A DNA stretch of 64,000 bases from NCBI RefSeq assembly GCF_001427795.1, contig NZ_LMHJ01000003.1:550204-614203 (forward strand), read 5' to 3'. How positions within the stretch are numbered: position 1 is the first letter of the stretch; the number at the start of each line of letters is the position of its first letter. The DNA is from Nocardioides sp. Root682. Lineage in GTDB: Bacteria; Actinomycetota; Actinomycetes; Propionibacteriales; Nocardioidaceae. Both the position numbers and the translations under genes were made by a program. The notes beneath the pieces are model-generated. The model worked only from the letters and a program-made list of their open reading frames with translations, ran no database searches and was not told the DNA's origin. Of the stretch, positions 26,856 through 30,759 are shown piece by piece.

Positions 26856-27698
26856 GTGAGGTTTCGTTCCATCGAGGGTGAACAGCGGTACGACGCGCTG
26901 CTGCGGGTCGCGCCGCGGACCGTCGTCGGACTCGACTTCGACGGCACCCTGTCGCCGATCGTGGACGACCCGGCGCAGGCCCACATCCACCCCGACGCGC
27001 CCGACGTCCTGGTCGAGCTGGCCGAGGAGGTCGCGGCGATCGCGGTCATCACCGGTCGCCCGGCTCGCCAGGCCCTGGACCTCGGCGGGCTGGAGGAGGT
27101 CGGCGACATCCTGCAGGCTGCGGGCAAGGAGCTGTTCGTCTTCGGCCAGTACGGCAACGAGCGGTGGAGCTCGGGTCGGCGCCGGATCCTGGGCGCTCGC
27201 CCACCGCGTGGTCTGGCCACCTTCGAGCGAGAGCTGCCCCGTGCCCTGCGCAGGGCCGACGCTGCTGACGCCTTCGTCGAGGACAAGGGCCTCGCGGTGG
27301 CCGTGCACACGCGGCGACTGCCCGATGCCGATGCCGCCTTCGACCGGCTGCTCCCGCCGTTGCGGGACCTGGCCCGGACCCACGGCCTGGTCCTGGAGCC
27401 GGGGCGCTCGGTGATCGAGGTCCGCTCCGCCGGCTCGCACAAGGGCATGGTCGTCCAGCGACTGGCTGCCGTCCTGGACGCCGAGGGCTTCCTCTTCGCC
27501 GGTGACGACCTCGGCGACGTCGAGGCGTTCGAGGCGCTCGACGACCTCGAGAAGCAGGGGCTGGCTGCCCTGCGCGTCTGCTCGGCCTCGCACGAGGAGA
27601 GCGCCCTGATCGGCATGTCCGACGTCGTGGTGCACGGGCCTGCCGGCGTACTCGAGCTGCTCCAGACGTTCGCCCGGGACGCTCGCGCACGTCGCTGA
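26856..27698 (+). CDS. otsB: Trehalose-6-phosphate phosphatase OtsB
   Basis: HAD-family phosphatase releasing trehalose, 280 residues, GTG start. The nucleophile motif is VVGLDFDGTLSPIVDDP (Asp about residue 28). The cap region precedes RSAGSHKGMVVQRLA, and motif IV is in FLFAGDDLGDVEAFEAL. Works on the product of OtsA at 21368-22792. A direct repeat of CCGTGATCAG precedes the start. Confidence 0.96.
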   Translation: MRFRSIEGEQRYDALLRVAPRTVVGLDFDGTLSPIVDDPAQAHIHPDAPDVLVELAEEVAAIAVITGRPARQALDLGGLEEVGDILQAAGKELFVFGQYGNERWSSGRRRILGARPPRGLATFERELPRALRRADAADAFVEDKGLAVAVHTRRLPDADAAFDRLLPPLRDLARTHGLVLEPGRSVIEVRSAGSHKGMVVQRLAAVLDAEGFLFAGDDLGDVEAFEALDDLEKQGLAALRVCSASHEESALIGMSDVVVHGPAGVLELLQTFARDARARR

Positions 27699-27776
27699 TC
27701 TCACATCGTGGATCTCCGTCTCACTAGTTGGAATCTCGATTCGGCCACGCACTCACCTCGCCCCTACGCTGTACCT

Positions 27777-27920
27777 GCTCATCCAGAGGGACTGAGGGAA
27801 CGGCCCTGAGAAGTCCCGGCAACCGCCGCGAATCCCCGTACGCACCAGTGCTTGAAGGTGCGTACGTCGCGGAAACGGTGCCAAATCCGACCGTCGCGAG
27901 AGTCGCGCGGGCAGATGAGA
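27777..27920 (+). promoter_or_regulatory. SAM riboswitch (S-box type)
   Basis: Carries the conserved S-box blocks in order: CTCATCCAGAG (start of P1), GGAACGGCCCTGAGAAGTCC, CGGCAACC, GGTGCCAAATCC and the closing GATGAG (27914-27919) pairing with CTCATC (27778-27783). TACGCT (27765-27770) places the transcription start at about 27777. The thrC ribosome site AAGGAGGA follows at once, so SAM binding probably shuts translation or transcription of thrC and the sulfur carrier gene. Confidence 0.93.
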
Positions 27921-27933
27921 AGGAGGATTTCCC

Positions 27934-29220
27934 ATGAGTGTTCTGACCGAGGCAGCTGAAGCCAGCGAACCGACGAGCAAGCCCGGACTTCGTGACGGCG
28001 CCTTCGGGCACGCCACCAACCTCGCCTGCCGCGAGTGTGGCCACAAGGTCGAGCTCGGCCCGTTCTATGCCTGTCCGGAGTGCTTCGGTCCGCTGGAGAT
28101 CACCTACGACTTCCCGGCCATCACCCGCGAGGAGATCGAGGCCGGTCCGGCCAACATCTGGCGCTACAAGGCGCTGCTGCCGGTCCCGACCGACATCGAG
28201 TCCAGCCCCAACACCGAGCCCGGCTTCACCCGGCTGATCAAGGCCGACAACCTCGGCCGCGAGCTCGGCATCACGAATCTGTGGGTGAAGGACGACTCCA
28301 CCAACCCCACCAACTCCTTCAAGGACCGCGTCGTCGCCTGCGCCCTGAGCGCGGCCCGCGAGCTCGGCGCGAAGGTCTTCGCCTGCCCCTCGACCGGCAA
28401 CCTGGCCAACGCGGTCGCCGCTGCCGGTGCGCGGGCCGGGATCAAGACGGTCGTCTTCATCCCGAGCAACCTCGAGCAGCCCAAGCAGGTCAACTCGGCG
28501 ATCTTCACCGAGAACCTCGTGGCGGTCGACGGCAACTACGACGACGTGAACAAGCTCGCCTCCGAGATCGCCGGCGAGGAGGAGGGCTGGGCGTTCGTCA
28601 ACGTCAACGTCCGTCCCTACTACGCCGAGGGCTCCAAGACGCTGGGCTACGAGATCGCCGAGCAGCTCGGCTGGCGCCTGCCCGACCAGATTGTCATCCC
28701 GGTCGCCTCCGGCTCACAGCTGACCAAGGTCGACAAGTCCCTCCAGGAGCTGATCAAGCTCGGCCTCGTCGAGGACAAGCCCTACCGGATCTTCGGTGCG
28801 CAGGCCGAGGGCTGTGGCCCGGTCGCCACGGCCTTCAAGGCGGGCGTCGACGCGATCCGTCCGGTCAAGCCGGACACGATCGCCAAGAGCCTGGCGATCG
28901 GCAACCCGGCCGACGGCATCTACGTCCTCGACATCACCCGCCGCACCGGCGGGGCGGTCGAGGAGGTCACCGACGACGAGATCCGCGCCGGGATCGTGCT
29001 GCTCGCCCGCACCGAGGGGATCTTCACCGAGACCGCCGGTGGCACCACCGTCGCCGTGACGAAGAAGCTGGTCGAGACCGGCCAGCTCGACCCGAACCTG
29101 GAGACGGTGGTCATCAACACCGGCCACGGCCTGAAGACGCTCGACGCGATCTCCGGCCAGGTCGGCCCCGCCGCCACCATTGCCCCGACCTACGCCGCCT
29201 TCAAGGCGACTGGTCTCTGA
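27934..29220 (+). CDS. thrC: Threonine synthase-like PLP enzyme under SAM control
   Basis: PLP enzyme of 428 residues in the threonine synthase family, acting on O-phosphohomoserine. It has an N-terminal zinc-ribbon (CREC and CPEC, about residues 32-52), the PLP lysine in KDDSTNPTNSFKDRVVACAL (about residue 130) and the phosphate-binding STGNLANAVAAAG. A SAM riboswitch drives it and a ThiS/MoaD-like sulfur carrier follows 28 bases later. That context is unusual for threonine synthesis and suggests a role in sulfur amino acid synthesis, for example making homocysteine from phosphohomoserine and a protein thiocarboxylate. The family call is firm; this reaction is inference. Confidence 0.9.
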   Translation: MSVLTEAAEASEPTSKPGLRDGAFGHATNLACRECGHKVELGPFYACPECFGPLEITYDFPAITREEIEAGPANIWRYKALLPVPTDIESSPNTEPGFTRLIKADNLGRELGITNLWVKDDSTNPTNSFKDRVVACALSAARELGAKVFACPSTGNLANAVAAAGARAGIKTVVFIPSNLEQPKQVNSAIFTENLVAVDGNYDDVNKLASEIAGEEEGWAFVNVNVRPYYAEGSKTLGYEIAEQLGWRLPDQIVIPVASGSQLTKVDKSLQELIKLGLVEDKPYRIFGAQAEGCGPVATAFKAGVDAIRPVKPDTIAKSLAIGNPADGIYVLDITRRTGGAVEEVTDDEIRAGIVLLARTEGIFTETAGGTTVAVTKKLVETGQLDPNLETVVINTGHGLKTLDAISGQVGPAATIAPTYAAFKATGL

Positions 29221-29248
29221 TCCCCCCACCCCCGTACAAAGGAACACC

Positions 29249-29530
29249 ATGAGCGTCAGCGTCCGGATCCCCACGATCCTCCGTACCTACACCGGCGGCG
29301 ACTCCGAGGTGAGCGCCACCGGCGCCACCGTCGCGGAGATCCTGGACGACCTCGACGGTCGCTTCGCCGGCATCAAGGGCCGGATCGTGGACGAGGACGG
29401 CAAGCTGCGCCGCTTCGTCAACGTCTACGTCAACAACGACGACGTGCGCTTCGAGCAGGACCTCGCGACGCCGACGCCGGACGGCGCCGAGGTCTCCGTG
29501 ATCCCCGCCGTCGCGGGTGGTTCGCGCTAA
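29249..29530 (+). CDS. ThiS/MoaD-family sulfur carrier protein
   Basis: A 93-residue beta-grasp protein: SVSVRIPTILRTYTGG at the start, VNVYVNNDDVRF in the middle and VSVIPAVAGGSR at the end. Carriers of this type take sulfur as a thiocarboxylate on a C-terminal Gly-Gly. Here two residues (Ser-Arg) follow the Gly-Gly, so a protease such as a Mec-type JAMM enzyme would be needed to expose it. AAAGGAA precedes the start. Co-transcribed with the SAM-regulated thrC. The last 4 bases overlap the convergent sigma factor gene. Confidence 0.88.
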   Translation: MSVSVRIPTILRTYTGGDSEVSATGATVAEILDDLDGRFAGIKGRIVDEDGKLRRFVNVYVNNDDVRFEQDLATPTPDGAEVSVIPAVAGGSR

Positions 29531-30759
29531 CCGATCTCCGCACGCCGCGCACGCAGGTGCGCGCGTTCGGCATCGTTGCGACACAGGGCGATCGCGGCGT
29601 CATACGCCTTCAGCGCCTCGGTGTGACGGCCTGACCGGAGCAGCAGCTCGGCCCGCACTGCGGGCAGTCGGTGCCCGGGCACGGCGACGCCGTCCAGTGC
29701 GGCCAGACCGGCGGCGGGGCCGTCGCGTTCGGCGATCGCCACGGCACGGTTGAGGCGAGCGACCGGCGTCGGGGCGAGCGCGAGCAGCTCGTCGTACCGC
29801 GCGACGATCCGGTCCCACGCGGTCTCCTCGGCCGATGACGCGATGGAGTGCTCGGCGGCGACCAGCGCCTGCAGGAGGTACGGCGCGGCCGGGGCGTCGG
29901 TGAGCGGCGTCAGCAACGCCACCGCCTCGAGGATCTCGTCGTGGTGCCACCGGGACCGGTCCTGGTCGGGCAGCAGCACCAGCCTGCCGTCGTCCACCCG
30001 GGCGTCGCGTCGCGAGTGCTGGAAGAGCATCAGTGCCAGCAGGGCATCGAGCTCGGAGGTGTCGACGTCGGCCGGGAGCACGGATCGCAGGACGCTCACC
30101 AGCCGGAGGGCCTCACCCGCCGGCCCGGGACGGAGCACGTCGGCGCCGGACCCGGGCGCGTAGCCGGCTGTGAACGCGAGGTAGGCGACGTCGGCGACCA
30201 CCGCGACGCGGGCCGCCAGCGCCGATGCCGGGGGGATCGTGAAGGCCGCGCCCGCCAGCTTCTTGCGTGCCCGGGTCAGGCGCGCCGCCATGGTCGCGGT
30301 CGGCACCAGGAACAGCCGGGCGATCTCCTCGGTCGGCACACCCATGACCAGCCGCAGGGTCAGCGCCGCAGCGGCCTCCCGGGACAGGCGTGGGTGGGCG
30401 CAGAGCAGCACCAGGCGCAGTCGTTCGTCGAGGAGCACGTCGCCTCCGTCCGCCATCACCTGGTGGTCGTGGTCGCCCACGCGGGCATCGACCTCGAGCA
30501 GGGGCTGCTTCGCGGCGTGGACCGACTCGGTCCGGAGCCGGTCGATGATGCGGCGTCGGGCGGTCGTCAGCAGCCAGGCCGGGGGATTGTCGGGTACGCC
30601 GTCTGTCGGCCAGCGTCGTGCCGCCGCCTCGAAGGCGTCCGCCAGCCCGTCCTCGGCGAGGTCGAGACGGCGGTGGCGCGCGACGAGCAGGGCGATCAGG
30701 CGGCCCCACTCGTCGCGCAGCAGCCGCTCGAGTGCTTCGGGAGCGGCGGGGGTGGTCAG
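29527..30759 (-). CDS. ECF42-type sigma factor with TPR-like tail
   Basis: Extracytoplasmic-function sigma factor of about 410 residues. Sigma region 2 (RLIALLVARHRRLDLAEDGLADAF and NPPAWLLTTARRRIIDRLR) lies upstream of any ATG or GTG. The frame opens at a CTG (30757-30759) that overlaps the stop of the DGPF gene as CTGA, so this is probably the true start; GTG 30480 would cut off region 2. Region 4 (ALTLRLVMGVPTEEIARLFLVP) is followed by a long helical extension typical of group ECF42. These sigma factors use DGPF proteins as partners instead of classical anti-sigmas. Confidence 0.88.
   Translation of the reverse strand: MTTPAAPEALERLLRDEWGRLIALLVARHRRLDLAEDGLADAFEAAARRWPTDGVPDNPPAWLLTTARRRIIDRLRTESVHAAKQPLLEVDARVGDHDHQVMADGGDVLLDERLRLVLLCAHPRLSREAAAALTLRLVMGVPTEEIARLFLVPTATMAARLTRARKKLAGAAFTIPPASALAARVAVVADVAYLAFTAGYAPGSGADVLRPGPAGEALRLVSVLRSVLPADVDTSELDALLALMLFQHSRRDARVDDGRLVLLPDQDRSRWHHDEILEAVALLTPLTDAPAAPYLLQALVAAEHSIASSAEETAWDRIVARYDELLALAPTPVARLNRAVAIAERDGPAAGLAALDGVAVPGHRLPAVRAELLLRSGRHTEALKAYDAAIALCRNDAERAHLRARRAEIG

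Follow-up and report, generated by a model that had tools for sequence, protein, structure and literature searches.

What does a SAM riboswitch control when the gene behind it resembles thrC, the gene for threonine synthase, and the gene after that encodes a sulfur carrier? We met this arrangement in a 64,000-nucleotide stretch of DNA from Nocardioides sp. Root682 (hereafter the window), whose genome is available as 5.2 Mb in eight contigs. A first-pass annotation, made from the letters of the window, had noted the riboswitch, the thrC-like gene and the carrier gene, and had proposed that enzyme and carrier together make homocysteine. Matches to RF00162, TIGR00260 and Pfam ThiS confirm the layout, at coordinates that had been given correctly to within one base. 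The proposed function also appears well founded, given a second thrC, a candidate Mec protease, the absence of notable MetX or MetA matches, and the Streptomyces MetM described in excerpts of PMC12172450. We consider it highly probable that the window genes, here called metM and metO, form an operon that, under its SAM-I riboswitch, would make homocysteine from O-phosphohomoserine.

Organization of the locus

Sequence, open reading frames and profile matches place riboswitch, enzyme gene and carrier gene in that order within 1.8 kb (Table 1). The metM ATG lies 12 nt past the end of the aptamer, and metO adjoins metM across a gap of 28 nt, as a two-gene operon. The closest named relatives of the window enzyme come from a Propionibacteriales metagenome-assembled genome (97%) and from Nocardioides immobilis (89%). 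A covariance-model search of the genome found a single RF00162 match, the aptamer at 27776-27921, which scores above the gathering threshold (70.5 versus 44.4 bits).

Table 1. Features of the metM-metO locus (positions in the window)
Feature	Position	Strand	Evidence
Candidate -10 element TACGCT (TAnnnT type)	27765-27770	+	Predicted from sequence; 7 nt before P1 5' strand
SAM-I (S-box) riboswitch aptamer	27776-27921	+	RF00162, full model 1-108, 70.5 bits, E 1.9e-14
P1 5' strand CTCATC	27778-27783	+	CTCATC in 109/110 loci, ATCATC in 1
P1 3' strand GATGAG	27914-27919	+	GATG[AG][AGC] pattern in 110/110 loci
Shine-Dalgarno AAGGAGG	27920-27926	+	Sequence; abuts P1 directly
metM-like gene, 428 aa	27934-29220	+	TIGR00260, NF006050 and Pfam PALP matches
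metO-like gene, 93 aa	29249-29530	+	Pfam ThiS, 58.7 bits; C-terminus GGSR

The core of this pathway is already in print. According to excerpts of PMC12172450, Hasebe et al. (2024) identified MetM in Streptomyces as a homocysteine synthase that uses O-phosphohomoserine; in S. albulus a SAM riboswitch precedes metM, and the excerpts compare metO of that species with a Microcystis gene that bears a sulfur-carrier annotation. The homocysteine route put forward in the first-pass annotation is thus not new, and the window operon is a further instance of it. A related operon may have been recorded under an older name: among the S. lividans cis-elements tabulated in excerpts of PMC8079986 is a SAM riboswitch ahead of SLIV_16930-SLIV_16925, entered as 'Threonine biosynthesis', which would fit metM-metO. 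That table is captioned as RNA-seq-validated, with 21 of the 22 elements transcribed and the exception not named in the excerpts. Our literature search found nothing on a SAM riboswitch, a threonine synthase and MoaD together, and a term search of one review on sulfur amino acids did not return the name MetM.

The window enzyme and canonical threonine synthase

The window enzyme reaches 259.4 bits against the TIGR00260 (thrC) model, above its cutoff of 167.1, and 294.5 bits against NF006050, below the cutoff of 303; solved ThrC structures also match it by sequence (E 3e-48). The TIGR00260 match does not by itself decide the function; MetM enzymes would be expected to pass this cutoff too. The first-pass annotation had let its proposal hinge on whether the window gene was the only thrC in the genome, and had asked for a second one beside hom and thrB. 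A genome search identified exactly such a gene, separate and canonical, on contig C1, where the order is hom, thrC, thrB and the encoded ThrC relative is about 33% identical to the window enzyme (Hom, NF004976 559.9 bits; ThrC, TIGR00260 279.8 bits; ThrB, TIGR00191 211.4 bits, cutoff 168.25). With these three genes present, O-phosphohomoserine, a substrate common to ThrC and MetM, is made anyway for threonine, so that the window enzyme would be a second user.

Comparison of the proteins sets the two enzymes apart. In a tree of 28 MetM proteins (one of them from Streptomyces), six paralogues (35-39% identity) and the genome's own ThrC, the MetM proteins form a clade with support 99/95, apart from the paralogues and from ThrC, the last being a very long branch whose placement is unsure. 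All 109 MetM proteins retain the PLP lysine motif SFKDR as well as an N-terminal, zinc-ribbon-like motif of four cysteines. Where the genome's own ThrC has PVGNAGN, STGNTS and EPASAAG, the window MetM has PVASGSQ, STGNLA and ETAGG, and each position but one of these three MetM motifs is conserved in 106 or more of the 109 MetM proteins. Threonine synthase-like paralogues 35-39% identical to MetM (L164-L169) carry FKARG instead of the FKDR lysine motif; one of these matches, L164 in genome G007, contains one TGA.

Distribution of metM, SAM-I riboswitches and MetX

We then surveyed 197 genomes of the class, counting as metM orthologues matches of at least 366 bits. By this threshold 136 genomes have metM; 138 had matched at E 1e-60, and G007 and G023, with only a weaker paralogue matching, were dropped. 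In 134 of the 136 metM genomes, the 1 kb upstream of metM contains a same-strand RF00162 match; 131 of these riboswitches are no more than 90 nt from the matched part of metM, and the others are 275, 279 and 894 nt away. Both metM genes without a riboswitch (G067, G015) are partial matches that start at residue 160 or 170. Because 134 of 136 orthologues share the upstream riboswitch, a chance origin of the arrangement is untenable. Seen from the riboswitch, 134 of 145 RF00162 matches sit at metM (the search filters lose some weak matches), and SAM-I riboswitches in this class thus seem to serve metM for the most part. The order of riboswitch, metM and metO recurs at a Streptomyces locus (L119), whose enzyme is 68% identical to the window MetM.

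Eleven RF00162 matches lie away from metM, and three of the eleven miss the gathering score; the eleven include G151:C1:1504714, G055:C13:31549, G116:C24:288093, G074:C241:2933 and matches in G025, G031, G065 and G076.

MetX, counted as present above 300 bits, was found in 53 of the 61 genomes without metM versus 59 of the 136 genomes with it (Fisher p 4e-9, uncorrected for relatedness), leaving 77 metM genomes without a MetX match over that score; in six metM genomes the MetX matches, some being fragments, reach only 56-170 bits, and these genomes are scored here as lacking MetX. Since 59 of the 136 metM genomes also carry MetX, the two routes are not exclusive. Eight genomes have neither metM nor MetX: G081 has MetA; G014, G076, G140 and G150 are less than 90% complete; and G007, G010 and G084 are without metM, MetX and MetA, G084 having a riboswitch match truncated by the start of a contig.

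In the Nocardioides sp. Root682 genome, the best MetX match in a profile search reached only 31 bits and MetA had no match. Because these searches found neither enzyme, MetM appears, at the level of gene content, to be the only visible entry to homocysteine. The genome does encode transsulfuration enzymes, which tells against this reading: a MetB-like protein (L010; NF005871 676.8 bits, cutoff 513) together with another high-scoring member of PF01053 (L011). As no acyl-homoserine supply is visible, both more likely serve cystathionine breakdown.

The carrier, its C-terminal tail and a putative Mec

The window carrier ends in VIPAVAGGSR, and AVAGG is invariant among 17 aligned carriers. Its best solved-structure profile matches are 3dwg chain C and 4n6e chain B; the 3dwg entry names chain C a 9.5 kDa culture filtrate antigen, which we take to be CysO. 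Four ThiS-family proteins match in the genome, namely MetO, CysO, a MoaD-like protein (TIGR01682 33 bits, below cutoff) and ThiS (TIGR01683 62.7 bits). CysO, encoded in a mec-cysO-cysM cluster (L018; G000:C1:1264681-1267950), ends in GGAR, so both amino acid carriers bear an Xaa-Arg tail, while the other two proteins are untailed and end in GG.

From the GGSR end, the first-pass annotation had concluded that the carrier is processed by a Mec-like protease. This fits the window species, where a Mec candidate is present, but does not extend to the family: among 91 MetO genes, one of them truncated, 71 of the 90 complete carriers end exactly in GG, so that trimming is no general requirement. The remaining 19 have one or two extra residues (C in 12, SR in two, A in two, and CA, S and YR), and the GGSR tail is a lineage trait. 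The first-pass annotation had also asked for a Mec homologue. A JAB protein lies beside cysO and cysM; no family model names it Mec, and it matches Pfam Prok-JAB (94.3 bits), and the only NCBIfam match is to a desampylase model, at 64.2 bits versus a cutoff of 130. We take it for Mec by position. JAB-family proteins occur in 133 of the 136 metM-positive versus 31 of the 61 metM-negative genomes, and the three metM genomes that lack one are 78-86% complete.

The genome's second JAB protein was rejected as a Mec candidate, as it is flanked by E1-E2 and TIR-SAVED genes, an arrangement seen in CBASS. The CBASS-like cluster predicted there by PADLOC (L009; G000:C3:166865-170179; E1-E2 552 bits, JAB, TIR-SAVED effector 645 bits) accounts for this protein.

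Genomes with metM but without an adjacent metO

At 19 of the 109 fetched metM loci no MetO was recognisable; one of these (L117) ends inside metM, leaving 18, for which about 1.5 kb (five loci) or about 4 kb (thirteen loci) of downstream DNA was examined. The thirteen comprise Nocardioides alcanivorans, N. daejeonensis and eleven loci from the Pseudonocardiaceae genera Lentzea, Pseudonocardia, Saccharothrix, Actinokineospora and Umezawaea (four of the eleven carry the family label). We searched 20 genomes for carriers: those of the thirteen and the five loci, together with G053 and G069 of the same family, in which a single carrier match lies on a different contig from metM.

Each of the 20 genomes has exactly one strong carrier of the MetO/CysO type (114-130 bits), and in all 20 this carrier is CysO, adjoining mec and cysM matches. 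A weaker carrier match (27.6-79.5 bits) is also present in 12 of the 20. Extra carriers at L156-L163 end in GG and share about 35-47% identity with MetO or CysO; no mec or cysM match lies beside them at the eight loci fetched.

For these genomes the simplest reading, suggested by gene content, is that CysO may serve both CysM and MetM. In Amycolatopsis, CysO is reported to be used by other enzymes. We give an even chance to a broader picture in which, in lineages with metM but no metO (Pseudonocardiaceae, some Nocardioides and others), CysO and one Mec would feed both CysM and MetM, MetO would be a lineage-dependent addition, and the SAM switch would be a minimal translational one built from P1 and the Shine-Dalgarno sequence. 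Sharing of CysO with MetM was not found in the literature examined, which reaches Hasebe et al. (2024) through a citing paper.

Geometry of the riboswitch and the ribosome-binding site

The leader survey covered the 109 fetched loci and the window (L025 and L058 are one stretch counted twice). At all 110 loci the 3' strand of P1, the stem that closes the aptamer, stops 8-21 nt short of a codon that could start metM in frame. A loose pattern picks out a purine-rich, Shine-Dalgarno-like run within 14 bases of the P1 end at 109 of the 110. The search pattern was tuned on the surveyed loci; a stricter earlier one matched 80. Because the closing stem ends so near a possible start at every locus, this geometry suggests a SAM-dependent block of translation.

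In the window, P1 is closed in the predicted fold of 27774-27960 (z -2.79; equalled by 1 of 200 shuffles), and the minimum-energy fold also pairs a CCU 5' of P1 with the AGG of the Shine-Dalgarno sequence. A scan for the sigma-70 consensus found nothing; TAnnnT, the type of our candidate -10 element, is given as the -10 motif for S. lividans in excerpts of PMC8079986. RNA starting from the candidate element would begin at about 27776-27778, near the start of P1 and perhaps too late to include the CCU, and the predicted extension of P1 into the Shine-Dalgarno sequence is therefore doubtful.

Proposed pathway

From these features we infer the following chemistry, adduct and Mec steps included, along with SAM binding and control at translation rather than transcription. 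The two-residue tail of MetO would be trimmed to Gly-Gly, after which the carrier would be adenylated and receive a C-terminal thiocarboxylate from a MoeZ-like enzyme. O-phosphohomoserine, produced through hom and thrB, would bind to MetM, which would expel the phosphate and attach sulfur from the carrier to the gamma carbon, so that homocysteine is left joined to the carrier. Hydrolysis of this adduct would fall to Mec, whose gene lies with cysO and cysM and which possibly also trims the tail; the homocysteine set free would then go to methionine synthase. At high SAM the aptamer would close P1, the stem with its 3' strand directly against the Shine-Dalgarno sequence, and metM would no longer be translated.

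Alternative readings

The enzyme might instead be a second threonine synthase that came under SAM control by chance, its neighbouring carrier serving something else. It does pass the TIGR00260 cutoff, and a Microcystis relative that is annotated ThrC and is 51.6% identical to its Streptomyces counterpart has threonine synthase activity, according to excerpts of PMC12172450; because of that activity, a dual role for MetM in homocysteine and threonine formation is possible. A purely threonine-forming enzyme is nevertheless very improbable: the genome already has a canonical ThrC with hom and thrB and shows no other entry to homocysteine, the three loop motifs that depart from this ThrC are near-invariant among MetM proteins, and the riboswitch accompanies metM in 134 of 136 genomes.

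A homocysteine synthase might also use free sulfide on O-phosphohomoserine, with the carrier optional, as the 18 of 109 fetched loci without a recognisable MetO could be taken to indicate. CysO, which could serve in its place, remains in every one of the 20 metO-less genomes searched, however, and in Streptomyces the MetO thiocarboxylate, from a metO gene downstream of metM, is reportedly the sulfur donor; we regard the use of free sulfide as unlikely. As to regulation, SAM-I riboswitches elsewhere often act through terminators, and for metM, too, control through a terminated transcript or a competing helix has to be weighed against direct masking of the Shine-Dalgarno sequence. No terminator-like site was found in 27600-29700, however, and the 8-21 nt that separate P1 from a possible start codon at all 110 loci argue against control of either former kind, which we judge quite improbable. 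Our preferred reading remains a carrier-fed homocysteine synthase under translational SAM control.

Implications

To the published pathway our analysis suggests adding that SAM-I riboswitches in the class sample precede metM almost exclusively, and the position of P1 at the ribosome-binding site; a possible further addition is the sharing of CysO where metO is missing. A carrier shared between cysteine and homocysteine synthesis is a testable idea for the metO-less genomes. Since the window enzyme passes the TIGR00260 cutoff, annotation pipelines are likely to label MetM a threonine synthase, and automated reconstruction would then leave many actinomycetes with an apparent gap in methionine synthesis.

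Comparison with known systems

Like canonical ThrC, the window enzyme has the PLP fold and matches TIGR00260. Unlike the genome's own ThrC, it combines the four-cysteine motif and changed loops with a carrier partner and a SAM riboswitch. Another carrier-thiocarboxylate route to homocysteine, HcyS/MetY of Wolinella, starts from O-acetylhomoserine and employs a MetY-type enzyme. The closest counterpart is the MetM/MetO system of Streptomyces albulus (Hasebe et al. 2024, Appl Environ Microbiol 90:e01247-24), which, from the excerpts of PMC12172450, shares the ThrC-like enzyme, the upstream SAM riboswitch and the metO gene; the window system belongs to another genus, has a carrier that ends in GGSR, and has an activity predicted from sequence.

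The CysM/CysO/Mec system of Mycobacterium tuberculosis is another carrier-fed route, and its resemblance extends to the carrier, given the best structure match of MetO to 3dwg chain C. In that system, as excerpted from PMC3227635, MoeZR turns CysO into its thiocarboxylate, CysM joins this to O-phosphoserine, and cysteine is then released by Mec; by analogy, the steps of MetO and MetM would be the same. It differs from the window system in its substrate, O-phosphoserine, and in its product, cysteine, and the window genome has a separate mec-cysO-cysM cluster of its own.
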